Shown: positions 38,448-57,815 of the stretch, one piece after another | Numbering within the stretch: position 1 is the first letter of the stretch | Layout: each line of letters starts with the position of its first letter | From: Butyrivibrio sp. MC2013 | GTDB taxonomy: Bacteria > Bacillota > Clostridia > Lachnospirales > Lachnospiraceae | Reading direction: 5' to 3' | DNA: 64,000 nucleotides | Assembly (NCBI RefSeq): GCF_000424585.1 | Contig: NZ_AUKE01000014.1 | Location: forward strand, 47,019 to 111,018 | The notes under the pieces: model-generated | The model's database searches: none | What the model was told of the DNA's origin: nothing | What the model saw: only the letters and a program-made list of their open reading frames with translations | Position numbers and translations under genes: made by a program

Positions 38448-39545
38448 ATGAAAGATATCGATTATATGAGACGGGCTCTGGAGCTTGCAAAGATGGGCGA
38501 GGGCTTTGTAAGTCCCAATCCTATGGTAGGCGCTGTGATAGTAAGGGACGGGATGATAATAGGCGAAGGCTATCATGAGTGCTACGGCGGCCTTCATGCA
38601 GAGCGAAATGCGCTCAAAGACTGCAGGGAAAAAGGCTATGATCCGGAAGGCGCTACCATGTATGTAAGTCTGGAGCCCTGCTGTCACTACGGAAAAACGC
38701 CTCCCTGTACAGAATCCATCATAGAAAGCAGGATAGCAAGGGTGGTCATAGCCTGTCTGGATGTGAACCCGCTGGTAGCAGGCAAAGGGGCAGAGATCCT
38801 AAGGAAAAATGGCATAGAGGTAGAAGTGGGGCTCATGGAAGAGGAAAGCAGCTACCTTAACCGTGTTTTTATCAAATATATGTCCACAAAGCTCCCTTAT
38901 CTGGTCATGAAATATGCCATGACAGCTGATGGCAAGATAGCAACATCAAAAGGCGAGTCAAAGTGGATAACAGGGGATAAGGCAAGAGAAAGAGTACACG
39001 GCCTTAGGAAAAGCCTGTCAGGGATCATGGTCGGGGTATCTACAGTGATCGCAGATGATCCTTCTCTTGATTGCAGATTGCAGGAGGAAGCACGTGACCC
39101 TGTGAGGATCATATGTGACAGCAATTTACGGACTCCCCTTGATGCTAAAGTGGTGACAACTGCAAGGACTATCACAACAGTTATCGCTACTGCCGCTGAT
39201 GACAGAGACAGGATCGCTGAATATGAAAACAGAGGCTGCAAGGTCCTGCAGCTTCCAAGGACTGATAAAGGCGTTGATCTAAAAGTGCTAATGGCAAAGC
39301 TTGGAGAAATGGGGATTGACAGCATCCTGCTGGAAGGAGGCGCAACTATCAACTACAGTGCCTTAGAGAGCAGGATAGTGGATGAAGTGCACATCCACAT
39401 TGCCCCAAAGCTTTTTGGCGGAAGCGGTAAATCTCCTGTAGAGGGGGCAGGCATATCGGATATAAATGATGCAGTCAGATTAAAGCCTGCAGCAGCATAT
39501 TGGGCTGGAGAAGATCTGATCATTGAGAATGAGGTGCTTTATTGA
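38448..39545 (+). CDS. ribD: RibD, bifunctional riboflavin deaminase-reductase
   Basis: This 365-residue enzyme has an N-terminal zinc deaminase domain (residues 1-145: GLHAERNAL, SLEPCCHYGKTPPC) and a C-terminal reductase domain (KYAMTADGKIATSKGESKWI, LLEGGATINYSAL). It carries out the second and third steps of riboflavin synthesis. ATG 38448 follows GGAGG. Its stop overlaps the ribE start (TGATG). Confidence 0.97.
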   Translation: MKDIDYMRRALELAKMGEGFVSPNPMVGAVIVRDGMIIGEGYHECYGGLHAERNALKDCREKGYDPEGATMYVSLEPCCHYGKTPPCTESIIESRIARVVIACLDVNPLVAGKGAEILRKNGIEVEVGLMEEESSYLNRVFIKYMSTKLPYLVMKYAMTADGKIATSKGESKWITGDKARERVHGLRKSLSGIMVGVSTVIADDPSLDCRLQEEARDPVRIICDSNLRTPLDAKVVTTARTITTVIATAADDRDRIAEYENRGCKVLQLPRTDKGVDLKVLMAKLGEMGIDSILLEGGATINYSALESRIVDEVHIHIAPKLFGGSGKSPVEGAGISDINDAVRLKPAAAYWAGEDLIIENEVLY

Positions 39546-40168
39546 TGTTTACAGGAATTATAGAGGAGCTTGGAAAGGTCAGGGAGCTAAACAGGGGCAG
39601 CAGGCAGCAAAGACTGACAGTTGAATGCAGTAAGATCCTTGAGGATATCCACATTGGAGACAGCATTGCGGTAAATGGCGTGTGCCTTACCGTGATAGAC
39701 CATGATAAGAACAGCTTCCTGGTTGATGTGATGAATGAGACCTTTGTGCGATCAAGCCTTGGAAGTCTCCAAAAAGGCAGTAGTGTAAATCTGGAGAGAG
39801 CTATGCCATCCAATGGACGCTTTGGAGGACATATAGTCTCGGGACATATAGATGGCACAGGCAGGATAAGAGCAAGGCGGGAAGATGGAAATGCTGTATG
39901 GTTTGAGATTAAGGCTGGCCCTGAGATCATGAGATATATCGTGGAAAAGGGCTCTGTAGCAATTGACGGCATCAGTCTGACTGTGGCAAAGGCCACAGCT
40001 GTGAGCTTTTGGGTATCGATCATTCCCCATACGCTTGGAAATACGGTCCTGGGTGATCGTAGAGTGGGAGATACTGTGAATCTGGAAAATGACATAGTCG
40101 CAAAATATATAAATAAAGCGCTTGAAAAGGAGATGTTATGGAAAGAGCTATCATTGAACAGGCTATAA
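39545..40168 (+). CDS. ribE: RibE, riboflavin synthase alpha subunit
   Basis: This 207-residue protein has two lumazine-binding repeats: [11 protein letters not shown] with [13 protein letters not shown] and the second repeat with [15 protein letters not shown] and [12 protein letters not shown]. It dismutates dimethylribityllumazine to riboflavin. The start ATG 39545 overlaps the ribD stop. Its last 31 bases overlap ribBA. Confidence 0.96.
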
Positions 40169-41334
40169 AAGACCTGAAAGAGGGCAGGGTCATCATGGTG
40201 ATGGATGACGAGGGCCGGGAAAATGAAGGGGATTTTATCTGCGCTGCAGAATTTGCCACAAGAGAAAATGTTAATCTTATGGCATCAGTTGGAAAGGGCC
40301 TTATATGCATGCCCATGAGCGAGGAAATTGCTGCAAGGCTCTCGCTTCCGCCCATGGTAAGGCACAATACGGATAATCACGAAACTGCATTTACCATATC
40401 TATTGATCATGTTGATACGACTACGGGTATTTCTGCAAAAGAACGTGCTTTTACTGCCAGGAGCTGCGTCCTGGATGATGTAAAAGCCAGTGATTTTAGA
40501 AGACCCGGACACATGTTTCCCCTTGTGGCCAAAAAAGGCGGAGTCATAGAGCGTCCGGGACATACCGAGGCTACTGTGGATCTGATGAAGCTGGCAGGAC
40601 TCAAAGAATGCGGTCTATGCTGCGAGATCATGGCTGATGATGGCAATATGATGCGAGGCGATGCACTGAGAAAGCTGGCAAAGGATATGGGCATTACATT
40701 TATCACCATTCCCCAGCTTGTGGAATACCGCAAGGTTTATGACGAGCTTGTAGAGTGCGTTTCCATTGCCAAGATGCCCACAAGGTACGGCGAATTCATG
40801 GCGCACTGCTATATCAACAAGATAACCAATGAGCATCATGTTGCTCTGGTAAAGGGTGAGGTTGGAGATGGTAAGGATCTGCTCTGCCGCGTACATTCCG
40901 AATGCCTCACAGGTGATGTATTTGGTTCTATGAGATGCGACTGCGGTCAGCAGTTTGATGCAGCCATGAAGGCTATCGCCAGAAAGGGCAGGGGAGTCCT
41001 CTTATATATGCGCCAGGAAGGCAGGGGGATAGGGCTTGTAAATAAGCTTAGGGCATATAAGCTGCAGGATGAAGGTATGGATACTCTTGATGCAAACATT
41101 GCCCTTGGTTTTCCGGGAGACCTGAGAGAGTATTACACAGGAGCACAGATACTTAGAGACCTGGGTATACATTCCCTTCTGCTGCTCACCAATAACCCTG
41201 ACAAGGTATATCAGCTTGAGGATTATGGAATGGAAATATCAAGAAGGCTGCCTATTGAGATGGAAGCAAATACTTATGATATCAGATATTTGAAAACCAA
41301 GAAAATACGCATGGGACATATGTTGGAGGTGTAA
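40138..41334 (+). CDS. ribBA: RibBA, DHBP synthase / GTP cyclohydrolase II
   Basis: This 398-residue enzyme has the DHBP synthase half ([32 protein letters not shown]) and the GTP cyclohydrolase II half with the zinc cysteines in [18 protein letters not shown] and the active-site [11 protein letters not shown]. It performs the two entry steps of the pathway. ATG 40138 follows AAGGAGAT. Confidence 0.97.
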
Positions 41335-41337
41335 AGA

Positions 41338-41802
41338 ATGAAGACTTATGAAGGAAAGCTGGTTTCATCAGACATTAAAGTAGGAATTGTAGTAGCGAGG
41401 TTCAATGAATTCATAACCTCTAAATTATTGGGAGGAGCGATTGACGGACTAAAACGTGAAAATGTAAAAGATGAGGATATCGAAGTGGCATGGGTACCCG
41501 GTGCGTTTGAGATCCCTCTTATTGCCAAAAAGATGGCAGACAGCAAAAGGTACGATGCTATCATCTGTCTTGGCGCTGTGATCCGCGGTGCAACTTCTCA
41601 CTATGATTATGTATGCGCAGAGGTATCAAAGGGTATAGCCCAGGTAAGCCTTAATGCTGATATCCCTGTGATGTTTGGGGTATTAACAACTGACACAATA
41701 GAACAGGCTGTTGAACGTGCAGGCACAAAGGCAGGAAATAAAGGCTTTGAGTGTGCCCAGGGAGCAATAGAGATGGTGAATCTCATTCGTTCGTTGGGAT
41801 AA
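41338..41802 (+). CDS. ribH: RibH, lumazine synthase
   Basis: This 154-residue protein has the lumazine synthase motifs [49 protein letters not shown] and [19 protein letters not shown]. It condenses the two riboflavin precursors. It lies 3 bases after ribBA and ends the operon. Confidence 0.97.
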
Positions 41803-43576: not shown

Positions 43577-43612
43577 CTATTTATAGAAAACAGGTAGCAG
43601 GAGGAAGTGGCC

Positions 43613-46183
43613 ATGGCAGCATTTGAAAGAATACTCTCCGGAATACCGGAAATGGACAAGGCTCTTGATAATATCAGGCTTGGAGACAATGTAGTATTCA
43701 GAGTTTCTGACCTTTCAGAGTTTAAGCTCTTTGTAGATCCCTATTTAGAGCAGGCCAAAAAGGACAGGCGAAATATCATTTATTTCAGATTTGCCACTCA
43801 TGAGCCGCTGGTTGAGGATTGCCCTGAGGTAAAGACATACAATGTGCCTCTTACCCATCGCTTTGAGACCTTTACAGTAGATATCCATAATATTATTGCC
43901 AAAGAAGGTAAAGATGCTTTCTATGTATTTGACTGCCTGTCAGAGCTGCAGATACGATGGGCTACTGACCTTATGATGGGCAATTTCTTCAGAGTGACCT
44001 GCCCCTTTCTCTTTATACTGGATACTGTAGCTTTTTTTCCCATAATCAGGGGCAAGCATTCTTTTTACGCAATAAATAAGATCCTTAATACTACGCAGCT
44101 CTTTTTGGATGTGTATTCCGATTCAAAAAATGTATATGTGCGTCCTGAGAAAGTATGGAACAGAAATTCTGAGACCATGTTCCTTCCCCATATCTACAGG
44201 AAGGACAAGGGGAGCTTTGGGCCGATCCTGGACGGAGTCCAGTCCAGCCGATTCTATCAGCTTCTTGATAATTTTCAAAGGCCCGGAGAAGATCAGTATA
44301 TTGATTTTTGGGATAAGTTTTTTAATAAAGCCAGGCTGCAATATGACAATGATATGGACATGACTGACTCCTGTAATGTGATGTGCAATATCATGATGAC
44401 CAGAGATGAGAAGATGAGACTTATGGTCAAAAAGCATTTTAAGCCCGAGGACTATTTTACAGTCAGAAGCCATATGATAGGAACAGGGCTCATAGGGGGT
44501 AAGGCATGCGGCATGCTGCTGGCCAGGGCGATAATCCGTAATGATAGCCCGGAGATAAATGAGGTGCTTGAACCTCATGATTCATTCTTTGTGGGCTCGG
44601 ATGTTTATTATACCTATATCGTCGACAATGAATTCTGGGATCTGCGCATTCGTCAGAGAACGGAGGAAGAGTATTTTGCCCTGGCGGATGAATTTGCAGA
44701 CAAGCTCAGGCAGGGTTCATTTTCCGAGGATCTTCAGACTCAGTTTAAGCGTATTCTGGAATATTATGGCCAGGATCCCTTTATAGTACGCTCAAGCAGT
44801 ATTCTGGAGGATGGATTTGGTAATGCCTTTGCAGGTAAGTATGAATCAGTTTTTTGTGCTAACAGGGGTAGCTTGGAAGAAAGGCTCGATGAATTTGAGA
44901 ATGCTATAAGAACTGTTTATGCAAGTACAATGAGCCTTTCTGCGCTTGATTACAGAAAGAGAAGGGGACTAGACAAAAGAGATGAGCAGATGGCACTTCT
45001 GATCCAGAGAGTGTCAGGCTCTTATTACGGGCCATACTATATGCCCTGCGCCGCAGGAGTGGGCTATTCTTATAGTCCATATAAGTTTCTGGCCGGTATA
45101 GACCAAAAAGCAGGTATGTTAAGACTGGTCATGGGACTTGGAACATCAGCTGTGGACAGGACTATGGGCTCGTATCCAAGGCTTGTGAGTCTGGACATGC
45201 CCGAGCGCACTTCCTCTGTAACTGTGACGGAGAAACACCAGTTCTCCCAGAGGGCAGTGGAGGCTATGGATGTAAGTGATCATGTGCTTAAACGCCTGGA
45301 ACTAAAGGATATTGAGAGTAAGCTCCCTATGTATCTGATGAACACTCTATTGGAACATGATATTGATGTGGAGAATTCACTTAAAGAGCGGGGGATATAT
45401 CGTGATATAAGATTTATTTCCTGCCGGGGACTGGTAAAGAAGCAGGTCTTAATGTCTCAGATGCAGATGCTCATGCAGATAATCCAAAAGGAATATGAGC
45501 ATCCGGTGGATATTGAGTTTACCATGAATCTCTCCGAGAACGGAGAATATTCTATAAATCTCTTACAATGCAGACCCCTTCAGGTAGCAAGGGATGCAGC
45601 AAATGTATCGGTGCCCGAAAATGTCAGTGAAGAGGATATCATCCTTGAAAGCATAGGTTCTTCAATGGGACTTTCAAGAAATATGCCTGTGGATCTTATA
45701 GTGTATGTGGATCCCAAGAGATATTACAATATGCCCTATGCTGACAAATCGCGAATTGCCAAGGTCATAGGTAGGGTGAACTGGGCGTTTAGAGATCAGG
45801 GAAGGCATATGATGCTGCTGGTACCGGGACGTATCGGGACTTCGTCTCCTGAGCTTGGTGTGCCCACATGCTTCTCTGATATCAGCGAATTTGAAGCGGT
45901 ATGCGAGATAGAGGAAAAGGAAGCAGGCTACAATCCGGAGCTTTCTTATGGGAGCCACATATTCCAGGATCTGGTCGAGTCAGATATTCTATACACAGCT
46001 GTATTCTCGGGAGAGAAAACAGTTCATTTTGCACCGGATAAGCTTGAGGGGGACAGAAATATAACCCTGGAATTTACCGATACCAAGGGAGACGAAGAGA
46101 TTGTAAAGGTATACGACATGAAGGACTCCGAATGCGTACTTTACTATGATCTGGAAAAGAATCATCTGCTTGTAAAGAAATAA
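43613..46183 (+). CDS. PEP-synthase-like ATP-grasp protein with a KaiC/RecA-like N-terminus
   Basis: This 856-residue protein has an N-terminal ~230-residue domain resembling a RecA/KaiC fold that starts FERILSGIPEMDKALDNIRL, but without an obvious Walker A lysine. The middle (about residues 290-660) is a PEP/pyruvate-binding ATP-grasp domain (VGGKACGML-like GLIGGKACGMLLARAI, DPFIVRSSSILEDGFGNAFA, GKYESVFCAN, LLQCRPLQ). The C-terminus has no TSH-type phosphohistidine swivel domain and no PEP-binding barrel. ATG 43613 follows AGGAGG. It may phosphorylate something other than pyruvate or act as a regulatory protein. Confidence 0.8.
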   Translation: MAAFERILSGIPEMDKALDNIRLGDNVVFRVSDLSEFKLFVDPYLEQAKKDRRNIIYFRFATHEPLVEDCPEVKTYNVPLTHRFETFTVDIHNIIAKEGKDAFYVFDCLSELQIRWATDLMMGNFFRVTCPFLFILDTVAFFPIIRGKHSFYAINKILNTTQLFLDVYSDSKNVYVRPEKVWNRNSETMFLPHIYRKDKGSFGPILDGVQSSRFYQLLDNFQRPGEDQYIDFWDKFFNKARLQYDNDMDMTDSCNVMCNIMMTRDEKMRLMVKKHFKPEDYFTVRSHMIGTGLIGGKACGMLLARAIIRNDSPEINEVLEPHDSFFVGSDVYYTYIVDNEFWDLRIRQRTEEEYFALADEFADKLRQGSFSEDLQTQFKRILEYYGQDPFIVRSSSILEDGFGNAFAGKYESVFCANRGSLEERLDEFENAIRTVYASTMSLSALDYRKRRGLDKRDEQMALLIQRVSGSYYGPYYMPCAAGVGYSYSPYKFLAGIDQKAGMLRLVMGLGTSAVDRTMGSYPRLVSLDMPERTSSVTVTEKHQFSQRAVEAMDVSDHVLKRLELKDIESKLPMYLMNTLLEHDIDVENSLKERGIYRDIRFISCRGLVKKQVLMSQMQMLMQIIQKEYEHPVDIEFTMNLSENGEYSINLLQCRPLQVARDAANVSVPENVSEEDIILESIGSSMGLSRNMPVDLIVYVDPKRYYNMPYADKSRIAKVIGRVNWAFRDQGRHMMLLVPGRIGTSSPELGVPTCFSDISEFEAVCEIEEKEAGYNPELSYGSHIFQDLVESDILYTAVFSGEKTVHFAPDKLEGDRNITLEFTDTKGDEEIVKVYDMKDSECVLYYDLEKNHLLVKK

Positions 46184-46200
46184 GCCTCTAAAGCTGATTC

Positions 46201-46283
46201 ATGACAGGAAAGTTGGTTAATGAGTCATAAAGTGGAATGACGTTATATCTGAATCTAAAACACTAAAACCCAATACATCTATC
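46201..46283 (+). repeat. 83-bp direct repeat R3, copy 1 (carries the tail of a lost pyridoxamine-oxidase-like gene)
   Basis: This block matches 55001-55083 at 81 of 83 positions by eye. Its first 30 bases encode MTGKLVNES and a stop, the last nine codons of the gene at 54539. The rest of that gene is not here. The two copies flank the DegT-ACP operon and the SMR gene. Confidence 0.9.
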
Positions 46284-46313
46284 CACATAGACCAGTACTG
46301 ACGCCAGTCGCTA

Positions 46314-46367
46314 GTGGTCTATTACTTTGCCCAAAACCAGGTGCGCAGGACAGGGGAAATGGACCAC
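46314..46367. other. Hairpin-forming intergenic sequence
   Basis: GTGGTC(T)ATT (46314-46323) pairs with AATGGACCAC (46358-46367) in one mismatched stem. Its role is unknown. It lies between R3 and R1 in the 350-base gap before the DegT operon. Confidence 0.45.
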
Positions 46368-46438
46368 AAACCCCGTCCCTAGGTAAAACTGAGGGCCTCT
46401 TTATATATGGTATGTCAAAAGCCCTATGAAAAGTGAGA

Positions 46439-46497
46439 GTTTTTACAAAATAGCCTTAACATGGTAATATGTATTCTGCTTTGTTAGAGCTATTTTG
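46439..46497. repeat. R1 element, diverged copy D
   Basis: GTTTTTACAAA, then the stem GCCTTAACA with TGTTAGAGC around the loop TGGTAATATGTATTC, then CTATTTT. The loop and flanks match the other R1 copies, while the stem differs in compensating ways. It lies 36 bases before the DegT start and may contain a terminator or leader. Confidence 0.7.
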
Positions 46498-46532
46498 GTG
46501 TTTGACAGCAAGGTAGTTTTGGTGATTTTTTT

Positions 46533-47774
46533 ATGGGCAATGTTATGATTGGTAATTTGATCAAGTACAGCAAACAATTGAATAATAATGACGTGTTTAT
46601 GAATGAAGCGTTGCAGATGGAAAAAGCAGCTAGTGTCGGCAAAAGAATTCGCCTGTTTTATCCCAAATATCATGTCGAGGAATGCCTTGCTCAAATCAGA
46701 GAATGTCTTGAAATTGGCTGGACAGGCAATGGCTTTAAAACTGAACAGTTTGAAGAGGTATGGATTAAATATACAGGGCAGAATAATGCACTGTTTCTGA
46801 ATTCTTGTTCAGCTGCTTTGGAACTGGCACTAGATGTACTTAAGACAGAGTACGGATGGGATGATGGCGATGAGGTTATAACTACTCCAAACACTTTTGT
46901 ATCCACAAATCATGCAATACTTCATAATGGGCTGAAACCGGTTTTTGCAGATATTGACGACACAAACTGCCTTGATCCTTTAGATGTTGAACGCAAGATG
47001 AGCCAGAAAACTCGTGCTGTTCTTTTTGTCGGAATAGGCGGAAATGCAGGCAGATATCTGGATATTGCAAAGATTTGCATGGAAAATGGTCTGAAGCTTA
47101 TTCTGGATGCTTCTCATATGGTTGGTACAAAGATTAGGGGAGAGGTCGCCGGAAGGGAAGCAGATGCGGTCTGCTATTCGTTTCAGTCAGTAAAGAATCT
47201 TACGACTGCTGATAGTGGTATGCTCTGTTTTAACAAGCCGGAATTAGGTAAGCAAGCCAGAAAAAAAGCCTGGCTAGGGATTAACCAAGGAACCTATGAA
47301 CGTAATTCTGAAAATGCTTATCGTTGGAATTATGATGTGGAATATATAGGTTATAAGTATCAAGGCAATTCTGTTATGGCAGCTATGGCTTTAGCCCAGT
47401 TTCAATTTCTTGATCAAGATAACGCTATAAGGGATAAAGTAGCATCATATTATGATGAAAAGCTTGCGCCATACAGAAATCTTGCAATTCCTGTCCGAAT
47501 CCCCAACGATTGCAAGTCTTCTCATCATCTGTATCAGATACTTGTAGATGATCGGGATCGGATGATTGATAGAATGAATGAAGCGGGTATAGAATGCGGT
47601 GTTCACTATGTTTCCAACACCAGATACAGCATGTACAGTTACGCTAGAGGAACATGCCCTAGGGCTGAATACGTGTCAGATCATGTCATTTCATTGCCTA
47701 TTCACGCAGCTCTGACAGATTCAGAAATACAATACATTATAAATACCCTTATTGGGATACTAAAAGAGGAATGA
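46533..47774 (+). CDS. DegT/DnrJ/EryC1-family PLP sugar aminotransferase
   Basis: This 413-residue enzyme has the family opening (GWTGNGFKTEQFE), FLNSCSAALELAL, LILDASHMVGTKIRG and the PLP lysine K221 in SFQSVKNLTTADSGM. These enzymes put an amino group on NDP-keto-sugars. The start is uncertain: ATG 46533 has no clear ribosome site, and the conserved part begins about residue 37. It heads the operon and would make an amino sugar for the following transferases; no NDP-sugar dehydratase is in the window. Confidence 0.9.
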   Translation: MGNVMIGNLIKYSKQLNNNDVFMNEALQMEKAASVGKRIRLFYPKYHVEECLAQIRECLEIGWTGNGFKTEQFEEVWIKYTGQNNALFLNSCSAALELALDVLKTEYGWDDGDEVITTPNTFVSTNHAILHNGLKPVFADIDDTNCLDPLDVERKMSQKTRAVLFVGIGGNAGRYLDIAKICMENGLKLILDASHMVGTKIRGEVAGREADAVCYSFQSVKNLTTADSGMLCFNKPELGKQARKKAWLGINQGTYERNSENAYRWNYDVEYIGYKYQGNSVMAAMALAQFQFLDQDNAIRDKVASYYDEKLAPYRNLAIPVRIPNDCKSSHHLYQILVDDRDRMIDRMNEAGIECGVHYVSNTRYSMYSYARGTCPRAEYVSDHVISLPIHAALTDSEIQYIINTLIGILKEE

Positions 47775-47777
47775 AAA

Positions 47778-48986
47778 ATGAAAATAGGATTAATAAGCGA
47801 AGCATATCCACCTATGTCCGGCGGAGTTGCAACATCTGCTCAAAGAGTAGCCAGAAATCTTGTAAAAGCAGGAAATGATGTTACTGTTTTGACATTCGAG
47901 AATACACATGAAGTGACAGAGCAGGATTTGCTTATCAGGGAAGAAGATAAGGGTGTCACTGTATATCGGATCGGGCCGTTTTTTCTAAAAAATCCCACCA
48001 TTCCTGCCGGAGGTGTATCTGAGAAATATAAGGCGGTATTAAGACGAAGAGCATTTAATCAGATGATCAGAATCCTAAAAGATGATATGCCGGATATACT
48101 GTTGTCATTTTATGTTATCAATGCAGGCTTCATCGCCCAGCTTGTGGCCAATGAATTAAAACTTCCGGTAGTTGCGGGGGTTAGAGGAAATGATATAGGA
48201 CGAAATATATTTGATATCACTCGTTTTGCTCCTGTGTATTGGGTCATGGACAGTGCTGATGCTATCGTATGTGTTAACAATCATTTGAGAAATCGGCTTC
48301 TTATAGCGTATCCGGATATGTATAAAAAGAGTCTTGTAATAAAGAACTCGTATGATCTTGCTAGTCTTAGAAAGACAACTGACAAAACCGGCACAAGGGC
48401 TGATCTTGTTGAAAAATACAACTGGAATAAAGAGGACCTGATTCTGAATTTCACAGGATCTTTAAGAGAGAAAAAAGGTGTTGTGACGCTCTGCCATGCA
48501 CTGGACATTATCAATGCTCAAGAAGACAAAGTGCGTCTTCTGGTTATAGGACCTGATCTGGGCAATGTTGAAAGGAAACTTATAGGGGATATTTGGGACA
48601 AACTGAAGGAGAAAAATATCATACAGGTGACTGGGCAATGCGACAGAGCTGAAGTACCTCGTCTTATAGCAGCTACCGACGCAGGATGCTTCCCGAGCAG
48701 TGATGACGGAATGGCAAACGGAGTTTTGGAAAACATGGCTTTAGGTATCCCGGTGATCGGAACTGAAATATTTGGAGATGTACTGACAAATTTACATGAT
48801 GGGATAATTATACCCGTTGATGATAAACAGGCTCTTGTCGAAGCTATTCTTACCCTTTATGCTGACAGAAATCTGATCAGTATTATGGGAAAGAAAGCTG
48901 AAGATACGATAGCCCATGAGTTTACACCTGAGATTGAGGCAGAAGCATATATTAGACTATTTAATAAAATATTGAAAAGAAGATAA
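47778..48986 (+). CDS. GT4 glycosyltransferase
   Basis: This 402-residue GT-B enzyme shows SEAYPPMSGGVATSAQRVAR at its N-terminus, FTGSLREKKGVVTLCHAL in the nucleotide-sugar half and the EX7E-like region DDGMANGVLENMALGIPVIG. No signal or membrane span is seen. It starts 3 bases after the DegT stop. It probably transfers a sugar (possibly the amino sugar made by DegT) to an unknown acceptor. Confidence 0.9.
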   Translation: MKIGLISEAYPPMSGGVATSAQRVARNLVKAGNDVTVLTFENTHEVTEQDLLIREEDKGVTVYRIGPFFLKNPTIPAGGVSEKYKAVLRRRAFNQMIRILKDDMPDILLSFYVINAGFIAQLVANELKLPVVAGVRGNDIGRNIFDITRFAPVYWVMDSADAIVCVNNHLRNRLLIAYPDMYKKSLVIKNSYDLASLRKTTDKTGTRADLVEKYNWNKEDLILNFTGSLREKKGVVTLCHALDIINAQEDKVRLLVIGPDLGNVERKLIGDIWDKLKEKNIIQVTGQCDRAEVPRLIAATDAGCFPSSDDGMANGVLENMALGIPVIGTEIFGDVLTNLHDGIIIPVDDKQALVEAILTLYADRNLISIMGKKAEDTIAHEFTPEIEAEAYIRLFNKILKRR

Positions 48987-48992
48987 AAAGTA

Positions 48993-50588
48993 ATGGGTAT
49001 ATGTATAAAATATGCAGATATAGTAATTACTACGGTTGCGGATAAGTTCATACCGCTTTGTACCGAAACACGCAAGCAGAATAGCAAGGCTTTTTTTTCC
49101 TCTCTGGAATCTGACAGCGCTAGTGAGCAATGGATAAGGGAGCACAGGTATGACCCAACAGATACGATTCTTGCGGTTACTACTGCAGATGATCAGTTCA
49201 TAGGTACAATAGGATATACCGTGAATGGTGATAGTGCAGATATAGGAAGGCTTGCAATTTATCTGCCTGCTATGAAGGAGTTCATTTATAAGTATGGGAA
49301 AGAGAGAGCCTCAGTGATCATGAGAGATGCATGCCGTGCTGTGCTCGACTATGTATTTCTCAACTTTCGTGTTTCATATATCACGGCAAGCGTTTTGGAG
49401 ACCAACTCTCTGTCTCGCAAGATATGTACAGATCTGGGCTGCACGGTATGGAAACATGAGAATGAAGGAAGTGATGAGGTCATTTTCAGAATGGACAGAG
49501 AACTCTTCCTAAAATCTCTTCGCAAGTATTGCCTTTTTTATCAGCACAATATCATAGAGAACACACATTATGCTGTTTCAGATGTGCTTTTGGCTTTGAT
49601 GGAAGCAGGGGTAAGGTATGATTTTGCAGCAAAGACAGTGATGAAAAACGAGATCTACGCTGCTATGGGCAATCCTGATGTTATTACTCTTGATAAATTA
49701 CCTTTTTACAAGGATTTTTATAAAAAATATAATTTGATACACGTTGTTTATGATGGTGAACCGGCACTGATGCTGTGCGCAGCAGCATATGTATACGGAA
49801 TCCCTTATATTCTCTCTTTTCAGGGAGGAAATGATACCAATTCCAAGATATTTCAGCCTGCTCTTACAGAGAAGACTATAAATGTTTGTGATCATGCTGC
49901 AATGGTTACGGTTGTGTGCGAAAGCGACTGTAGGATACTGACTAGTCTGGGCTTTAAAGGAAGAATTGCTGTTTTTCCTCCGACCATAAGAAAAGACCAC
50001 GAAAAAAAAGGAAATAAGGATAGGTATCGTATTGCTGTTGTGGGCAGGTTTATCCCCAAAAAAGGAATAGATATCGCCATCAAGGCTCTACGTTATATGC
50101 CGGAGCAATATAAGTTGGATATAATCGGGGAAGGTGAACTGGAAAAAGATCTTAAAGTGCTTGCAGAGCAATGCAACGTAAATGATCGCATAACCTGGCA
50201 TGGCTTTCTTCCAATGAACGAAATGAAAGCGGTTCTGGATGAATGTGGTATACTCTGGCATCCTGCAAGAAAAGATATCACCGGAAATGCAGAAGGTATT
50301 CCGCAGATCCTTTTGAATGCCATGCAGGCTGAAACTTGTGTTGTCACCACAGCGAGCGGTCACATAACAGATCTTATATTGGATGGCATCAATGGAATAA
50401 TTGTTCCGCCAGATGATCCTGAAGCGCTTGCTCATTCTACCATGACAAATATTGCTTGTATGGAGCGTTATATAAAGACAGCTGCCTGCAGTTTGGATGA
50501 GTATGATATCAAAAATGCCAGGGTGAGATGGACAGAGCTGTATCGTAATATAAAACTTATAAATAAAGGTGAGTTTGAGGGAATATGA
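48993..50588 (+). CDS. GNAT N-acyltransferase fused to a GT4 glycosyltransferase
   Basis: This 531-residue protein has two parts. Residues 1-175 resemble a GNAT acyltransferase (DDQFIGTIGYTVNGDSADIG, then a helix and ASVLETNSLSRKICTDLGC, the acetyl-CoA-side region). Residues 180-530 are a GT-B enzyme (LSFQGGNDTN, VVGRFIPKKGIDIAIKAL, IIGEGELEKDL, NAEGIPQILLNAMQA). The union suggests that an amino sugar is N-acylated and transferred by one protein. It lies 6 bases after the previous gene. Confidence 0.85.
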   Translation: MGICIKYADIVITTVADKFIPLCTETRKQNSKAFFSSLESDSASEQWIREHRYDPTDTILAVTTADDQFIGTIGYTVNGDSADIGRLAIYLPAMKEFIYKYGKERASVIMRDACRAVLDYVFLNFRVSYITASVLETNSLSRKICTDLGCTVWKHENEGSDEVIFRMDRELFLKSLRKYCLFYQHNIIENTHYAVSDVLLALMEAGVRYDFAAKTVMKNEIYAAMGNPDVITLDKLPFYKDFYKKYNLIHVVYDGEPALMLCAAAYVYGIPYILSFQGGNDTNSKIFQPALTEKTINVCDHAAMVTVVCESDCRILTSLGFKGRIAVFPPTIRKDHEKKGNKDRYRIAVVGRFIPKKGIDIAIKALRYMPEQYKLDIIGEGELEKDLKVLAEQCNVNDRITWHGFLPMNEMKAVLDECGILWHPARKDITGNAEGIPQILLNAMQAETCVVTTASGHITDLILDGINGIIVPPDDPEALAHSTMTNIACMERYIKTAACSLDEYDIKNARVRWTELYRNIKLINKGEFEGI

Positions 50589-51484
50589 AAGAAAACTGGG
50601 AAGAGTTTGTGACTTCGAAAAAGAATGATCCTCTAACGCAGGAATCACTTGAAGATGCTTTGGCGGTACTCACACTCTCTGAGGCTCCTACTCTGACTGC
50701 AGCCGGAGGCCAGGGTCTTCTTTATAAGGTGGAAATCGGTCATGCTCAGTATTTCATTAAGATACCATATTATTCCAGGCATAAAAGCATAGAAGTTGCA
50801 AGGCACAACATCCTGAAAGAAGCGATCGTACTTGAAAGACTAAATGAAAACGGAGACTATGAATATGTTCCCAAACTGCTGTGCTACTCAAGGAGGGGGA
50901 ATTATCTTATCCGTGAGTATATTCCGGGAGCTATCTTAAATGATTGTATAAAGCATGCGTCTTATGACGAGAGAAAGAAACTTCTTGAGCAGGAATATGT
51001 GATGGCGCAGAGTTTATTCAAGACATTTCATGATCATAAAGAAGGAAGCATGGTTATTCGTGACTTCAAACCTGCCAATATCATATCTGGGGATGATGGA
51101 GGACTTGTGATAATAGATTTCGGCAGCGTAAAAAGAGAAGATGAGTTAAATTCTCATAAGCCCCAGAATATGAACAGGTTTCTCGGAACAGGTAAATATC
51201 TCCACTGGCCGCTTGAGCAGATGGTCGACAATGGGATAGACGCAGACCGCAGAGTGGATTATTTTGCCTTCGGAGTTATGGCTTTTTATACACTATTTAT
51301 TGAATCTCCGTTTGACAATAAAGAACAGGATTATGACAAAGCTGCTGCAAAGTACAGGACACAGTACCATATGGCTGGAGAGAGACTGGATTCTCTGTGC
51401 AAATCTGACCCGGAAATAGATAAATGGAAGGACATCATAATGAGTGCCCTTGAAACAGATATTGATAAAAGGAAATTTCTATAA
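50585..51484 (+). CDS. Protein-kinase-fold enzyme
   Basis: This 299-residue protein has an almost complete Ser/Thr-kinase catalytic core: glycine-rich loop AGGQGLLYKV, the lysine K59 in YFIKI, the catalytic loop VIRDFKPANI (D160, N165) and the DFG in VIIDFGSV (178-180). It has no membrane span or sensor domain. The start overlaps the preceding stop (ATGA). It may phosphorylate a small molecule, a pathway protein or the carrier product; the catalytic residues argue that it is active. Confidence 0.88.
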   Translation: MKENWEEFVTSKKNDPLTQESLEDALAVLTLSEAPTLTAAGGQGLLYKVEIGHAQYFIKIPYYSRHKSIEVARHNILKEAIVLERLNENGDYEYVPKLLCYSRRGNYLIREYIPGAILNDCIKHASYDERKKLLEQEYVMAQSLFKTFHDHKEGSMVIRDFKPANIISGDDGGLVIIDFGSVKREDELNSHKPQNMNRFLGTGKYLHWPLEQMVDNGIDADRRVDYFAFGVMAFYTLFIESPFDNKEQDYDKAAAKYRTQYHMAGERLDSLCKSDPEIDKWKDIIMSALETDIDKRKFL

Positions 51485-52968
51485 TGGAAGAAAAAACGGG
51501 AATTGATCCGGAAGTTAAAAACAGATTGTTGAAACAGCTCGAAAATGGTTCAATAGGAGAGCTCATCAAAAAAACCGCTGAACTGTACGAAGAACGTGAC
51601 GCATTTCTGGTCGTGACGTCTGAACTGGATATTCAGTTTGGAGTGTCGTACCGAGATTTCTGCGAAAACATTTATAGAATCGCCGGATTTATACGTGAGC
51701 GATTTTCCTCAAATAAGCATATTGCCTTAAAGGGTGCCAACTCTTTTGAGTGGGTCTGCTTGTATTTGGGAATCATTATAAGTGGTAATATTGCTGTTCT
51801 GCTTAATAAAGATGATGAAGGAGAGACCCTGGAAAAAGAGCTGAAGAAGACAGATAGTGATATTATGCTCACATCCGGTGAAAAGAATACAGGTTCCTCA
51901 ATACCGGTATATCATTTTCGGGAATTCATTACAGAAGCGGTTGCCCATGATGAATTGATACCGGACCAGAAATGTGATTCTTCCAGAATCTGTACTTTGA
52001 TAGGAACTTCGGGAACAACCGGAGAAAGAAAATATTGCATGCTGACCGAAAAAGGCATACTGCAGTCAGCTCTTAACCTCTGCCATGCTGTTCCTTCAGA
52101 TGTACATGGGTATGCTATTTCGATTCTTCCGTTTTTTCACAGTTATAGCCTTTCATGTGGAATCATATACCAGCTTATTGAGGGCAACACAACAGTCATT
52201 GGAGTACCTGACAGTAGTCTGATGGCGGCAATTAACCATTTTTATCCTGCCTATCTAATCTTCGTCCCAAGTCTTCTTTTTGCGCTGAGGTTTTATCTGA
52301 ACAGTCTTTCTAAGGAAGAGAGCAATCTGGTCAGGAATAATATTCGGACTGTATTTTGTGGCGGAGCGCCTCTGACTGCTGAGATGGCAGAATGGTATGC
52401 AGGTAATAAGATAGAACTTATCACCGGGTACGGAATGACAGAATGCGCCCCAATAATCGCGGTTCATTCTCGGACGAATTTTGATCCCTATTCTGTAGGC
52501 TGCATCTGCAAGGCGTTTGAATACAGGATAGTAGATGGAGAGCTTGAGGTCAGAGGGCCTCAGATCATGAAGGGATATTATGGAGATGAGAAGTCTACCC
52601 AGGCGGTTTTTCATGATGGATGGTTAAGAACAGGAGATCTGGTCAGACTGGACGCTCAGAATAGACTGATCATCACTGGCAGGAGAAAGAACATCATAGT
52701 GCTTTCTAACGGGGAGAATATTAGTCCGGAAGAAATCGAAAACATTTTGATGTCGAATCCCGGTATTGGCTATTGCAGGATATGGGGAAAAGAGAATAGT
52801 ATAATTGTTGATATTTATTCAGGAGTTTACAGCGATGATGAAGTTTACAGGATAGTTTTAAAGGCAAACGGTCTGCTTCCGGCTTATAAAAGCATAAAGA
52901 GAATCAATATTCTTAAGACAATGCCGGATACCGTCGAACTTGGAAAGGTAAAAAGAATTGAGTATTGA
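51484..52968 (+). CDS. AMP-forming acyl/aminoacyl ligase
   Basis: This 494-residue adenylate-forming enzyme has the P-loop-like core motif TLIGTSGTTGERKY (about 172-185), ITGYGMTECAPI, the RTGDLVRLD motif and the hinge TGRRKNIIVLSNGENISPEE, ending with the Lys region ELGKVKR. It activates a carboxylate with ATP; the adjacent carrier protein is the expected acceptor. ATG 51484 overlaps the kinase stop (TAATG). Substrate cannot be read; short-chain acyl or amino acids are both possible. Confidence 0.92.
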   Translation: MEEKTGIDPEVKNRLLKQLENGSIGELIKKTAELYEERDAFLVVTSELDIQFGVSYRDFCENIYRIAGFIRERFSSNKHIALKGANSFEWVCLYLGIIISGNIAVLLNKDDEGETLEKELKKTDSDIMLTSGEKNTGSSIPVYHFREFITEAVAHDELIPDQKCDSSRICTLIGTSGTTGERKYCMLTEKGILQSALNLCHAVPSDVHGYAISILPFFHSYSLSCGIIYQLIEGNTTVIGVPDSSLMAAINHFYPAYLIFVPSLLFALRFYLNSLSKEESNLVRNNIRTVFCGGAPLTAEMAEWYAGNKIELITGYGMTECAPIIAVHSRTNFDPYSVGCICKAFEYRIVDGELEVRGPQIMKGYYGDEKSTQAVFHDGWLRTGDLVRLDAQNRLIITGRRKNIIVLSNGENISPEEIENILMSNPGIGYCRIWGKENSIIVDIYSGVYSDDEVYRIVLKANGLLPAYKSIKRINILKTMPDTVELGKVKRIEY

Positions 52969-53200
52969 TGAGATTAGAGAAAAACTGATTCTGATAATTG
53001 AAAGAGGAAGTGGCAAAGCAGGTATTAGGCCTGACATGGATTTGATCCTGGACCTGGGACTTGATTCCATAGGTTATTTTATTCTCCTTGAAAACGTGGA
53101 AAGAGAATTTTCGGTAAAGTTTTCAAATCAGGATATTTTTACTGATGTGACGACTGTCGAAGAGTTGAGCTGTAAAATAAGGGATTTGATGAATGACTGA
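52958..53200 (+). CDS. Acyl/peptidyl carrier protein
   Basis: This 80-residue four-helix carrier has the phosphopantetheine site DLGLDSIGYFIL (Ser37). It starts at TTG 52958 inside the ligase gene, with GGAAAGG upstream, so the two are translationally coupled. It would carry the acyl group activated by the ligase. There is no housekeeping fatty-acid gene nearby, which marks it as a dedicated carrier. Confidence 0.92.
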   Translation: MSIDEIREKLILIIERGSGKAGIRPDMDLILDLGLDSIGYFILLENVEREFSVKFSNQDIFTDVTTVEELSCKIRDLMND

Positions 53201-53747
53201 GAGCAAAGGCAGATTGTTTCTGGCAAGACATGGGGCCACTGAATGGACATCCCAACATAGATTGACCGGGTGGGAGGATCTCCCTATTTCGGAAATAGGA
53301 AAAGAAGAATCATACAACTGTGGCGCTTATTTGAAGAAACAGGGGATTGTATTTGATAGAGCATATACTTCTGACCTGCTCAGAGCGAGTCAGACTCTTG
53401 ATATAATTTTAGATATCATAGGGCAGAAGAATTTGTCGATAATATCAAATAGTGCTTTAAGAGAACAGTTTTTTGGCTCCTCCCAAGGAGCAAGCCACAT
53501 GGAAAGAAGAAGCACAGGCTTTCAAATGGATCCGGCAGCCGAGACGGCGGAAGATTTTAGAGAGAGGGTTCACAAGTTCTTCTACGATGAGATAAATCCG
53601 AAACTTGAGGAGGGAGAGATTGTTCTCGTTGTGACACATCAAAGAGTTATTCGCGAAATTGTTACATGTATCAGTGGAAACAATGGTGCATCGACTCCTG
53701 ATTTCGAAAAGTGGGAAACCGGAGAAGTTCGCCAGGTGAATATATAG
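53193..53747 (+). CDS. Histidine-phosphatase (phosphoglycerate mutase-like)
   Basis: This 184-residue enzyme begins with the RHG motif (LFLARHGATEWTSQHRLTGW, His13). It also has DRAYTSDLLRASQTLDIIL, an acid in ALREQFFG and the second His in LVVTHQRVIREI. The size and motifs fit a small-molecule phosphatase. It overlaps the ACP gene and is the last gene of the operon, where it might remove a phosphate from the product or undo the kinase. Confidence 0.92.
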   Translation: MTESKGRLFLARHGATEWTSQHRLTGWEDLPISEIGKEESYNCGAYLKKQGIVFDRAYTSDLLRASQTLDIILDIIGQKNLSIISNSALREQFFGSSQGASHMERRSTGFQMDPAAETAEDFRERVHKFFYDEINPKLEEGEIVLVVTHQRVIREIVTCISGNNGASTPDFEKWETGEVRQVNI

Positions 53748-53792
53748 TTCATACAAAGACCTGCAGTATTCCGTTGTGTTTGTATTGGATTA

Positions 53793-53840
53793 TTGATCGG
53801 TACAATCATTAGCTTTTCTATAGGATAAAAAATGAAAAAG
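53793..53840 (+). repeat. Short direct repeat R4, copy 1
   Basis: TTGATCGGTACAATCATT and the following A/T-rich leader up to ATGAAAAAG match 55084-55133 closely, with small gaps. In copy 2 the ATG starts a real gene; here it leads into a broken acetyltransferase tail. Confidence 0.75.
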
Positions 53841-53997
53841 CTGCTCTTATGCTATTGGATACTATGCAAAAGAAGGTTTTGAAGTTGTCTCAGAACTGTT
53901 TATGGAAGATGGTATCCCACATGTGAAGATGGAAAGATTAGTATTATATGAAGATTCGAAAAGATTGATAGAACGTTATATTCGAATATTTTCTTGA
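53836..53997 (+). pseudogene. GNAT acetyltransferase remnant (C-terminal end)
   Basis: In one frame the sequence reads AIGYYAKEGFEVVSELFMED and then GIPHVKMERLVLYED to a stop at 53995-53997. This is a typical GNAT C-terminal end. The N-terminal two-thirds are absent, and the piece is joined to the leader of the R4 repeat. Confidence 0.7.
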
Positions 53998-54041
53998 CAA
54001 CAAAGCTCGTTACCCAGTATAGTTGATGAAACAAAACAAAC

Positions 54042-54127
54042 AGACGCCCATTGCTACCGAGTAGTGGGATTAACGTCATTTCTTTACCGTTAGGTCTTAG
54101 CAGGTAAGGAAATGGCGTATTTTATTT
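54042..54127 (+). promoter_or_regulatory. Structured leader with terminator before the SMR gene (possible guanidine-responsive riboswitch)
   Basis: A hairpin with CTAC-CGA-GTAG (54047-54068) is followed by a 16-bp stem, ACGTCATTTCTTTACC (54073-54088) with GGTAAGGAAATGGCGT (54103-54118), and TATTTTATTT. The loop TTAGGTCTTAG could pair with the ACC of the first hairpin. The two-hairpin, terminator-type layout ahead of a guanidinium-type SMR exporter suggests a guanidine-IV-like riboswitch. The class assignment is from memory and unproven; the terminator is clear. Confidence 0.5.
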
Positions 54128-54185
54128 CCGCGAGCAATGAGGAAAATTAACATGCTTGCATAGACATTTGACGAATGCCGCGAGA

Positions 54186-54207
54186 GTCTGAAATTTTAAT
54201 TTCAGAC
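54186..54207. promoter_or_regulatory. Perfect 22-base palindrome directly before the SMR ribosome site
   Basis: GTCTGAAATT and AATTTCAGAC are exact inverted repeats with TT between them. They end four bases before GGAGG. It could be a repressor site or an RNA stem that modulates translation. Confidence 0.45.
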
Positions 54208-54221
54208 CTATGGAGGTTTCT

Positions 54222-54542
54222 ATGAAGTGGATATATTGTTTTATTGCAGGTGCTCTTGAAATTACGTGGGCGGTAACTATGAAAATGTCCGATGGATTTA
54301 CGCTACTGATTCCATCTATAATAACCGGCATCGGGTATATAGCCAGCGCTGTATTTCTTTCGATAGCGTTGAAGCAGCTACCGCTGGGAACAGCATATGC
54401 CATGTGGACCGGTATGGGAATTGTTGGAACCACGCTGTTGGGAATATTTCTTTTCCATGAAAAGCTTACAGTTCCACAGGTGATATGTGTTATTCTGATT
54501 GTAGTTGGAATAGCAGGACTTAAGATTTTGGCGAAAGAATGA
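54222..54542 (+). CDS. SMR-family exporter (Gdx/SugE-like)
   Basis: This 106-residue protein has four membrane spans, the conserved Glu in the first (GALEITWAV) and the Gdx-type signatures KMSDGFT, LPLGTAYAMWTGMGIVGT. These favour guanidinium export over broad drug export. ATG 54222 follows GGAGG. Its stop overlaps the start of the following gene (ATGA). The leader upstream may control it. Confidence 0.9.
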   Translation: MKWIYCFIAGALEITWAVTMKMSDGFTLLIPSIITGIGYIASAVFLSIALKQLPLGTAYAMWTGMGIVGTTLLGIFLFHEKLTVPQVICVILIVVGIAGLKILAKE

Positions 54543-55030
54543 GGTTGTTAAGGATGTTTAGAGAAATGCGTAGATTTAAACAGCAAGTGTCAGAAGCTGA
54601 GTGCATTGAAATTTTAAAAAGTACCAAGAGAGGTGTCTTATCTGTAATTGGAGATGATGGTTATCCATATGGAATGCCAATCAATCATTATTATTGTGAA
54701 GCTGATGGCAAGCTTTATTTTCATGGAGCCAAGGCTGGACATAAGATTGATGCCATCAAGGCTTGTAACAAGGCAAGCTATTGCGTTTACAACGACGGTT
54801 TTCGAAAGGAAGGGGATTGGGCTTTAAATATCACTAGCGTCATCATCTTTGGTAGAATTCATCTGGTAGAAGATGATGAGGTTGCCCTTAGAATATGCTC
54901 TGAGCTAACAAAGAAATTTACAGATGATCAAGAGTATCTGGACAAAGAGATTAAGAACTCATTTCGTAACGTTCAATGTTTGGAATTTGTACCAGAGCAT
55001 ATGACAGGAAAGTTGGTTAATGAGTCATAA
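54539..55030 (+). CDS. Pyridoxamine 5'-phosphate oxidase-family protein (NimA-like)
   Basis: This 163-residue split-barrel flavin-binding protein has GVLSVIGDDGYPYGMPINHY and KLYFHGAKAGHKIDAIKAC, typical of the nitroimidazole-resistance-like PPOX group. It overlaps the SMR stop by four bases. Its last nine codons are part of the 83-bp repeat R3, whose other copy sits at 46201 without the rest of the gene. Confidence 0.9.
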   Translation: MRLLRMFREMRRFKQQVSEAECIEILKSTKRGVLSVIGDDGYPYGMPINHYYCEADGKLYFHGAKAGHKIDAIKACNKASYCVYNDGFRKEGDWALNITSVIIFGRIHLVEDDEVALRICSELTKKFTDDQEYLDKEIKNSFRNVQCLEFVPEHMTGKLVNES

Positions 55031-55083
55031 AGTGGAATGACGTTATATCTGAATCTAAAACACCAAAACCAAATACATCTATC
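55001..55083 (+). repeat. 83-bp direct repeat R3, copy 2
   Basis: It covers the end of the pyridoxamine-oxidase-like gene and 53 bases after it, matching 46201-46283 at 81 of 83 positions. It directly abuts R4 copy 2. Confidence 0.9.
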
Positions 55084-55133
55084 TTGATCGGTACAATCAT
55101 TATCTTTTCCATTGGAGAAAAAATATGAAAAAG
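55084..55133 (+). repeat. Short direct repeat R4, copy 2
   Basis: It matches the leader at 53793-53840 and ends with the start codon and first codons of the TIGR04076-type gene. Confidence 0.75.
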
Positions 55134-56469: not shown

Positions 56470-56632
56470 AAATCCGTCCTGACATGGTAATATATATTCG
56501 CTGTGTCAGGACTATTTTTATGTCATAATAGATAAATGGTGCCCGGCGTGGTACTCGGTACAATAAGCTGAGATAACAAATGGCTTAAATAAAGCATTTT
56601 TAAAAGGAGATACATAAAAAATGAAACTAGGC
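56470..56632. repeat. R1 element, copy A
   Basis: It contains AAATCCGTCCTGACATGG, the stem GTCCTGACA/TGTCAGGAC, the conserved loop and TATTTTTATG, followed by about 110 bases shared with copy C to ATGAAACTAGG. It separates the DUF1062 fragment from the DUF3791/DUF3990 module. The ATG at the end opens only 17 codons. Confidence 0.85.
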
Positions 56633-56731: not shown

Positions 56732-56950
56732 ATGAGCTATCAGAGAAGATTGATAAATTATACAGTTGCATGTGTTAATGAGTTTGCTGAAGCTTTTAAT
56801 TTGAATGTTAAAGAAGCATATAGATATCTTCGAGATTTCAAGGGAATAGAGTTCCTGAAGGATTTCTACGAGGAAGAGCATCTTTTATCATTTGATAATG
56901 TGGTTGAAGATTTACAAGCTCTTTGCCGGAGAAATGGAGGAACTATATGA
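56732..56950 (+). CDS. DUF3791-family small protein (possible antitoxin)
   Basis: This 72-residue protein has the family pattern AYRYLRDFKGIEFLKDFYEE, then a His and FDNVVEDLQALC. DUF3791 proteins occur next to DUF3990 proteins. Here the stop overlaps the DUF3990 start (ATGA). The small size and coupling fit an antitoxin-like partner. Ribosome site GAGGAAG. Confidence 0.82.
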   Translation: MSYQRRLINYTVACVNEFAEAFNLNVKEAYRYLRDFKGIEFLKDFYEEEHLLSFDNVVEDLQALCRRNGGTI

Positions 56951-57453
56951 TTCTTTATCATGGTAGTAATGTTGATATACAAAATATCAGCTTGTCAGCT
57001 TGCAGACCATATAAGGATTTTGGTAGGGGATTCTATTTAACAGATATTCCGGAACAGGCTGAGCGCATGGCAGAACGAGTTGCTAGGATTTACGGTGGTG
57101 AACCTGTACTCAATATTTATGAGATAGATGATTCTTTTTTGGATTCCTCTAGTCTTAGAATCAAAAATTTTGGTGAAGAAACAACGGAAGATTGGGCTCG
57201 TTTTGTAATGAATAATAGGAATAGAGGCTTTGAGAATTATTCAGATCCATTGTGCAATTTCGATTCTAAGTATGATATCGTAATTGGACCTGTTGCGGAT
57301 GATAATATGGCAATGCTGTTTAGACAATATGAAGAAGAAGTTATAGATTTTGATACGCTTCTTAAAGGCATGATATATAAAAAGACATCTTCACAGTATT
57401 CATTCCATACACCTGCAGCTATTTCATTATTGAGGAAAATTAGTCATGAATGA
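56947..57453 (+). CDS. DUF3990-family protein, ADP-ribosyltransferase-like (possible toxin)
   Basis: This 168-residue protein opens ILYHGSNVDI and has FGRGFYLTDIPEQAERMAER, the His-Gly and Gly-phi-Tyr features of ADP-ribosyltransferase folds such as DUF3990. Later YDIVIGPVADDNMA is conserved in the family. ATG 56947 overlaps the DUF3791 stop; a longer frame exists but starts inside that gene. It is likely the effector of a toxin-antitoxin-like unit; target unknown. Confidence 0.82.
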   Translation: MILYHGSNVDIQNISLSACRPYKDFGRGFYLTDIPEQAERMAERVARIYGGEPVLNIYEIDDSFLDSSSLRIKNFGEETTEDWARFVMNNRNRGFENYSDPLCNFDSKYDIVIGPVADDNMAMLFRQYEEEVIDFDTLLKGMIYKKTSSQYSFHTPAAISLLRKISHE

Positions 57454-57676
57454 GAAAAAGCAACTAATAGAGTATGCTATTCAGGATATTGTTGAAATGA
57501 TCTCGAAAGATCAGAACGTAGAATATGACGAGGCTATGAACTTCTTTTATGAATCAGAGGTTTTTGATAAGCTTCAAGATGTAGAAACAGGGCTTTATCG
57601 TGAAAGCTCTGCTTATATTTATGATTTATATAAAGATGAGTTGAACTTCGGGCATATCGTTCAAGCTGAAATATAA
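57446..57676 (+). CDS. Small helical protein, third gene of the DUF3990 module
   Basis: This 76-residue acidic protein starts inside the DUF3990 gene (8-base overlap), so it is translationally coupled. It has MISKDQNVEYDEAMNFFYES and LYKDELNFGHIVQAEI and resembles DUF3791 proteins in length and in its amphipathic helices. It may be a second antitoxin-like partner. Confidence 0.7.
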   Translation: MNEKKQLIEYAIQDIVEMISKDQNVEYDEAMNFFYESEVFDKLQDVETGLYRESSAYIYDLYKDELNFGHIVQAEI

Positions 57677-57713: not shown

Positions 57714-57815
57714 CACGTTTTTACAAATCCGTCCTGACATGGTAATATATATTCGCTGTGTCAGGGCTATTTTTTGTCGTAATACATAAATGGTACTCGT
57801 CGTGGCACTCGGTAT
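57714..57815. repeat. R1 element, copy B
   Basis: CACGTTTTTACAAATCC, the stem GTCCTGACA/TGTCAGGGC with the conserved loop, and TATTTTTTGTC, followed by a shortened form of the downstream block with TGGCACTCGGTA. It follows the DUF3990 module. Confidence 0.85.

Follow-up and report, generated by a model that had tools for sequence, protein, structure and literature searches.

A tightly packed group of seven genes in Butyrivibrio sp. MC2013 raises the question what kind of product would require a sugar aminotransferase, two glycosyltransferases, an AMP-forming ligase, a carrier protein and, in addition, a protein-kinase-like enzyme and a phosphatase. The genes lie at 46533-53747 on the + strand of a stretch of 64,000 nucleotides (contig NZ_AUKE01000014.1 of assembly GCF_000424585.1, positions 47,019 to 111,018 of the forward strand), which as a whole is referred to as the window in the following. 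From our point of view, there is about an even chance that a 7.5-kb block, inserted as one piece and comprising the whole operon, makes an acylated amino-sugar glycoside, and that its GNAT-GT4 glycosyltransferase and its kinase work together on the product, the first attaching a sugar and the second adding phosphate afterwards.

In order, the operon encodes a DegT/DnrJ/EryC1/StrS sugar aminotransferase of 413 aa with an SFQSVK motif (46533..47774; PF01041, 273 bits), a GT4 glycosyltransferase of 402 aa (47778..48986; PF00534, 81.9 bits), a GNAT domain fused to a GT4 enzyme, 531 aa (48993..50588; PF13302, 34.6 bits with a cut-off of 25.4, and PF00534, 107.7 bits), a Ser/Thr-protein-kinase-like enzyme of 299 aa (50585..51484; PF00069, 56 bits), an AMP-forming ligase of 494 aa (51484..52968; PF00501, 152.9 bits), a phosphopantetheine carrier protein of 80 aa with a TTG start and a GLDS site (52958..53200; PF00550, 33.8 bits) and a histidine phosphatase of branch 1, 184 aa (53193..53747; PF00300, 103.3 bits), all on the + strand. 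The spacing between consecutive genes is 3, 6, -4, -1, -11 and -8 bases, and the catalytic motifs are intact in the operon proteins where checked. The coordinates, the gaps and overlaps of a few bases and the family assignments confirm the tight seven-gene operon that an earlier reading of the letters alone (the sequence-only reading) had described, and the domain scan bears out its remark that polymerase, flippase and dehydratase are lacking among the seven genes. Its statement that no described pathway has this gene set also agrees with the literature that was searched, in which none was found, subscription journals being mostly outside the coverage. The family scans covered 30 proteins of the window, and its left 30 kb is represented by the listing of open reading frames (ORFs) only.

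The family of the kinase is a rare one. Among 5.8 billion proteins searched, 26 clusters matched, 24 of which form one compact family made up of the window's own sequence, two at 84-87% and 21 at 32-42% identity in the alignment; the alignment and the profile (A1) were built on these 24, with the generic kinases P0025 and P0026 left out. One member, P0022, is named as Streptococcus suis in one source. At E <= 1e-25 the profile found the own genome alone in 398 genomes of the phylum, 391 of the class and 392 of the order, draws that overlap and in which each genome was scored on its first few candidates only. When the threshold was set to 1e-15, 13 matches appeared in 79 genomes of the genus, one of them being the own genome (413 bits); the other 12 reached at most 66 bits and lay in longer frames of about 565-580 aa, and no member of the kinase family was found in the other 78 genus genomes searched. 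With the single kinase sequence at 1e-5, 151 of 397 genomes of the taxonomic family matched, the best score outside the own genome being 46.5 bits.

The GNAT-GT4 protein gave 68 matches in the same 5.8 billion proteins, the 7,999 candidates sharing most words having been scored. Seven of these relatives (P0027-P0033) match over 80-100% of the protein, P0029 being shorter with 424 aa, and 18 of the 68 were aligned with the window's own protein (alignment A2). At 1e-40 the glycosyltransferase profile found the own genome alone among 254 phylum genomes. The model of the GNAT-GT4 protein has a predicted local distance difference test (pLDDT) score of 84.8, and the GT4 structures BshA, PimA and HepE are among its best Foldseek matches.

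That the two enzymes belong together is suggested by two kinds of observation, namely (i), indirectly, the sizes of the contigs on which they occur and (ii), directly, a fusion of the two in one protein. As to the first, four of the 23 other kinase clusters share the exact size of their longest contig with a GT4 cluster (66663, 18120, 8115 and 2866), as compared with a mean of 0.057 coincidences and a maximum of 2 in 20,000 trials in which the kinase contig sizes were jittered by up to 10%. The comparison took in 67 of the 68 glycosyltransferase rows (P0044 being without a value) and, for the ligase, the non-own rows of the best 120 of 7,764 matches; the sizes were transcribed by hand, and one ligase value was entered twice. 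The size 66663 is shared by GNAT-GT4, kinase and ligase in a close relative (84-90% identity; ligase 84%). Among the remaining pairs, the partner of P0008, a kinase that joins the window's kinases in the tree with a support of 0.93, is P0033, a GT4 enzyme of GNAT-GT4 size that aligns across the GNAT part too, and the pairs P0006/P0036 and P0014/P0037 join a GT4 enzyme without the GNAT part to kinases of a different clade. As to the second, a public protein of 671 aa (P0043) carries the GT4 subfamily at residues 2-347 fused to the kinase family at 369-648. Scored with profiles built without P0043, its GT4 part reaches 354 bits and its kinase part 197 bits, while no generic kinase from the fetched loci exceeds 78.8 bits. 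Taken together, this suggests that GT4 and kinase have been conserved as a pair. Since the ligase shares a contig size with this pair only in the close relative, whereas GT4 and kinase do so in more distant ones too, these two would form the core, and the genes for the amino sugar, the acyl group and the phosphatase would be a local supply.

One could tentatively go further and propose, with clearly less confidence, that the GT4 enzyme and the partner with a Ser/Thr kinase fold constitute a two-enzyme module not described so far, which would make phosphorylated glycosides and be the bacterial equivalent of glycan kinases with a protein-kinase fold. In this genome it would have arrived as a compact cassette that brought along the genes for the amino sugar, the acyl ligase and the carrier, and the co-encoded phosphatase would toggle its product. 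To our knowledge, a glycoside-phosphorylating role is seldom assigned to bacterial kinases with a protein-kinase fold. If the proposal is true, the pair would be a dedicated bacterial route by which a small molecule or a surface group receives both sugar and phosphate, and the small set of enzymes makes the pathway directly testable in vitro.

Several observations weigh against such a pair and its proposed role. That two genes share a contig is deduced from equal sizes, and the fusion is known from one protein (P0043) on one contig, so that an assembly error is possible. Twelve of the 18 aligned GT4 relatives (P0034-P0045) lack the GNAT part, and the Pfam GNAT model stays below its cut-off in P0030 and has no match in P0032 and P0033, though these align there; acyl transfer therefore does not belong to the conserved core. 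In the kinase tree P0024 has the generic kinases P0025 and P0026 next to it and the deep nodes are poorly supported (0.115 to 0.77), which leaves the family without a sharp boundary. The expectation from the sequence-only reading that the genes are kept together across genomes holds only in part for the three genes compared: judged by equal contig sizes, GNAT-GT4, kinase and ligase recur in one close relative and GT4 and kinase in three more distant ones, but the ligase accompanies them in that close relative only, with no distant co-occurrence among the best 120 of its 7,764 matches. The domain scan found no acceptor or exporter in the block. The best solved relative of the phosphatase is the phosphoglycerate mutase 1fzt (88.6 bits), and since its nearest relatives are of this kind, it may act on a small phosphate ester of any sort. 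Lastly, the kinase has a canonical Ser/Thr protein kinase fold, with the catalytic motifs present, which means that a protein target fits as well as a sugar.

This last point leads to a different explanation, which we consider rather unlikely although it is the strongest of the rivals, namely that the enzyme is a regulatory protein kinase which turns glycan synthesis on or off by phosphorylating GT4 or a partner protein, the phosphatase being a metabolic enzyme. Besides the fold, the sequence matches of the kinase, which are of Stk1/PknB type, are consistent with such a role, and the fusion in P0043 would hold a regulator beside its target. The structures of the sugar kinases WaaP and POMK do not appear among the 50 fold matches listed, which excludes nothing. 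However, the kinase of the window matches no sensor, PASTA or FHA domain, and the block encodes a histidine-type phosphatase rather than a protein phosphatase of the PP2C type.

The flanks of the operon suggest how it may have come to its present place, a feature that the sequence-only reading had not noticed. The left flanking sequence R (46201..46283, + strand), the tail of a pyridoxamine-oxidase-like gene and sequence beyond it, has a copy at 55001-55083 (97.6% identity over 83 bp), and the right flanking sequence T (53793..53840, + strand) has one at 55084-55133 (88% over 50 columns). In this uninterrupted, operon-free arrangement (55001..55133, + strand), about 1.2 kb beyond the operon block, the two abut at 55083/55084 with zero bases between them. 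Across the own genome, R and T each match only one other place at E <= 1e-3, both within 55001-55133, and the core pattern of T has 2 matches in the window with 0 expected. As R and T are joined at the one place and split by the operon at the other, the 7,509 bp in between (46284..53792, + strand), the complete operon together with its leader and trailer, would have been placed between sequences of this kind, and insertion as one piece is the simplest reading of what the block looks like. The left copy of R carries just the tail of the pyridoxamine-oxidase-like gene. If the insertion is real, it and the uninterrupted copy of its flanks in the same window would show the gain of a pathway in a single step.

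Other signs of such an event are less telling. No repeats of at least 18 bases, direct or inverted, were found at the block ends in 45900-54600, and a hairpin at the left end of the block is weak (z -1.94, with 8 of 200 shuffles as good). The GC content of the operon genes is 0.37-0.43 and that of 24 other window genes 0.38-0.50, ranges that overlap, so that the comparison is only suggestive. The PPDK_N gene upstream of the operon is present in 41 of the 79 genus genomes including the own one (match at 1e-50), and in 10 of 10 others fetched, none of the seven operon genes was found at 1e-8 in the 5.3-15.0 kb downstream of it. The same 10 genomes also lack the window's other genes downstream of PPDK_N, and hence they are not clean empty insertion sites.

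As to the pathway itself, the best reading in our view is a cytosolic one that would resemble a viosamine island with the ligase as the source of the acyl group, and whose product would be phosphorylated and could be dephosphorylated again. Judging from its family, the DegT enzyme, with TlmJ (5uid, 178 bits) as its best solved relative and ArnB (1mdo, 144 bits) as the next, would aminate a nucleotide-linked keto-sugar, with the dehydratase supplied from elsewhere in the genome; the own genome has 10 matches to PF16363 (best 484 bits), and these proteins could supply the keto-sugar. The ligase would activate a carboxylic acid and load it on the carrier, which could be primed by the product of the one phosphopantetheinyl transferase match in the own genome (60.5 bits). 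Both kinds of helper genes are ordinary, since 14 of 14 control genomes match PF16363 as well and 10 of the 14 the transferase. From its carrier, the acyl group (or else an acetyl group) would be transferred to the amino sugar by the GNAT domain, the two GT4 enzymes would add sugars to some acceptor, and the kinase would phosphorylate the glycoside or its acceptor. The histidine phosphatase would presumably remove a phosphate, be it at the end of the pathway or from a sugar phosphate. The least certain part of this scheme is the assignment of the glycoside to the kinase and of its product to the phosphatase.

The nature of the acyl group can be narrowed down to some extent. The ligase scores 187 bits with MenE, 177 bits with the long-chain acyl-CoA ligase model and 95.2 bits with the amino-acid adenylation model TIGR01733 (cut-off 317.4), staying under the cut-off with all three. 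By score it is thus nearer to acyl-acid than to amino-acid ligases, which makes an acyl group the better guess and weakens the aminoacylated product that the sequence-only reading had allowed for. A short-pattern scan for ligase relatives in 84,980 species genomes, which may leave out the own genome and its near kin, yielded 18 loci with 22-29% identity and none higher, and in the 18 stretches fetched no other operon genes were found near these relatives at 1e-4, except for a DegT match in the archaeal locus L038.

A second alternative, which we hold to be improbable, is that the block makes a modified sugar that transferases of the host attach to a surface protein or polymer, as in a decoration of flagella or other surface glycans. 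Viosamine islands use DegT, an acyltransferase, a glycosyltransferase and an acyl carrier protein (ACP) for flagellin (PMC3927599), and L038 joins DegT, GT4, an LpxD-like acyltransferase, ACPS and ACP to a related AMP-ligase. However, no flagellin or surface-protein family is present among the 30 scanned window proteins, the left 30 kb and the genome not having been searched for flagellin, and the flippase and polymerase are absent from the block. Still more doubtful is an aminoglycoside-like antibiotic cassette, in which the kinase would keep an intermediate phosphorylated and harmless in the cell until the phosphatase frees the active glycoside, even though both enzymes are encoded within one operon and DegT, GT4, ligase and carrier are butirosin-like in kind. 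While PMC6804068 describes three putative phosphotransferase genes in a streptomycin cluster, it reports the butirosin cluster to be without a detectable one; moreover, the block here has neither a cyclitol-making enzyme nor an exporter, and the kinase scores 56 bits with the Pkinase model as against 20.5 bits with the APH model PF01636 (cut-off 23.2).

Further candidates were tried and rejected. With regard to known defence systems, PADLOC matched the kinase alone and only in a generic way (30 families, most of the 25 matches listed being PD-T4-6 models, with 67.9 bits as the best), the other six proteins being unmatched. With regard to a phage origin, PHROGs gave weak matches for two of three proteins (48 and 34 bits), and scanning viral contigs for patterns from the kinase alignment produced no confirmed relative. 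With regard to plasmids, the kinase is matched by 11 records, none of them reaching 60% identity and 10 of the 11 annotated as Ser/Thr kinases, and 413 match GNAT-GT4, none covering over 80% of the protein.

The wider surroundings of the operon consist of thiamine genes, riboflavin genes, an SDR gene and the gene of the 858-aa PPDK_N protein upstream, and of an SMR transporter and the pyridoxamine-oxidase-like gene downstream. In the 858-aa protein (43607-46183), Pfam finds the PPDK_N ATP-binding domain (295-676) only and no other phosphoenolpyruvate-synthase domain. Within 33762-41802, a thiamine pyrophosphate (TPP) riboswitch precedes the thiamine genes and an adjoining flavin mononucleotide (FMN) riboswitch the riboflavin genes. 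Before the operon there is no Rfam match at gathering scores; promoter-like sites show no excess (34 vs 41.4 in shuffles), and terminator-like sites number 12 vs 10.0 in shuffles. Just 5' of DegT lies a diverged but folding copy of a hairpin-forming repeat element of about 58 bp (46439..46496, + strand; fold z -3.26), which may serve in termination or recombination, or else be an intergenic repeat of the ordinary kind. Other copies are located at 56478-56518, 57717-57773 and 62180-62236 as well as on another contig (C36) of the own genome; the core has 4 matches in the 64 kb with 0 expected, all on the + strand and in the right-hand 18 kb, and the element separates groups of small genes. Directly downstream of the operon, 53848-53937 appears to be a decayed fragment of a GNAT acetyltransferase gene (the GNAT reading being made by eye), with a likeness of 85-86% to sequences that the own genome has on contigs C36 and C19. 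Further on, at 56923-57676, a DUF3990 protein is directly followed by an ORF of 76 aa, which together we take to resemble a two-gene unit of the toxin-antitoxin type.

Among known systems, the viosamine island of Pseudomonas syringae, with the seven genes vioA, vioM, vioT, vioS, vioB, vioR and acp, offers a close parallel to the reading of the block as a source of an acylated amino-sugar glycoside. Its description (PMC3927599) places the aminotransferase VioA, the acyltransferase VioB, the glycosyltransferase VioT and an acyl carrier together, and proposes that the carrier and VioB put an acyl group on the amino sugar; in the operon here it is PF01041, PF00550 and PF00534 that are joined. In the island, the acyl group is tied to VioS and VioR, whereas the operon here has an AMP-ligase instead, and no KAS III or ketoacyl reductase domains as in those two proteins were found in its seven genes. 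The operon here further differs by its two GT4 enzymes, one of them fused to GNAT, and by the kinase and the phosphatase, both of which the island lacks.

A second parallel is the locus L038 of Methanomassiliicoccus MXMAG1, where DegT (30%), GT4, ACP and AMP-ligase (24%) occur within about 6.5 kb together with an acyltransferase. Its gene company supports the view that ligase and carrier are an acyl supply for an amino-sugar pathway. In contrast to the operon here, it has the LpxD-like acyltransferase, LuxC/LuxE and its own ACPS, and the kinase and the phosphatase of the operon are unmatched there at 1e-4. The archaeal cluster is unusual and acyl-amino-sugar-like in its own right, with DegT, GT4, LpxD-like acyltransferase, ACPS, ACP, AMP-ligase, LuxE, LuxC and SDR at 4494-14521 of the locus.

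With the lanthipeptide synthetase LanL the operon shares only the kinase, for which it is the best NCBIfam match (57.7 bits, cut-off 650). Lanthipeptide maturation of the LanL/LanKC kind was rejected, as the 299-aa kinase stands alone without lyase and cyclase domains and the two intergenic flanks contain no precursor-like ORF. In butirosin-type side-chain loading (BtrJ/BtrI), an AMP-ligase charges a stand-alone carrier and the product is an amino sugar; the block here differs in that it has no cyclitol synthase and that its ligase is nearer to acyl-acid ligases by score. Overall, cassettes for carrier-acylated amino sugars are already known, and the unusual part of the present one is its GT4-kinase module.

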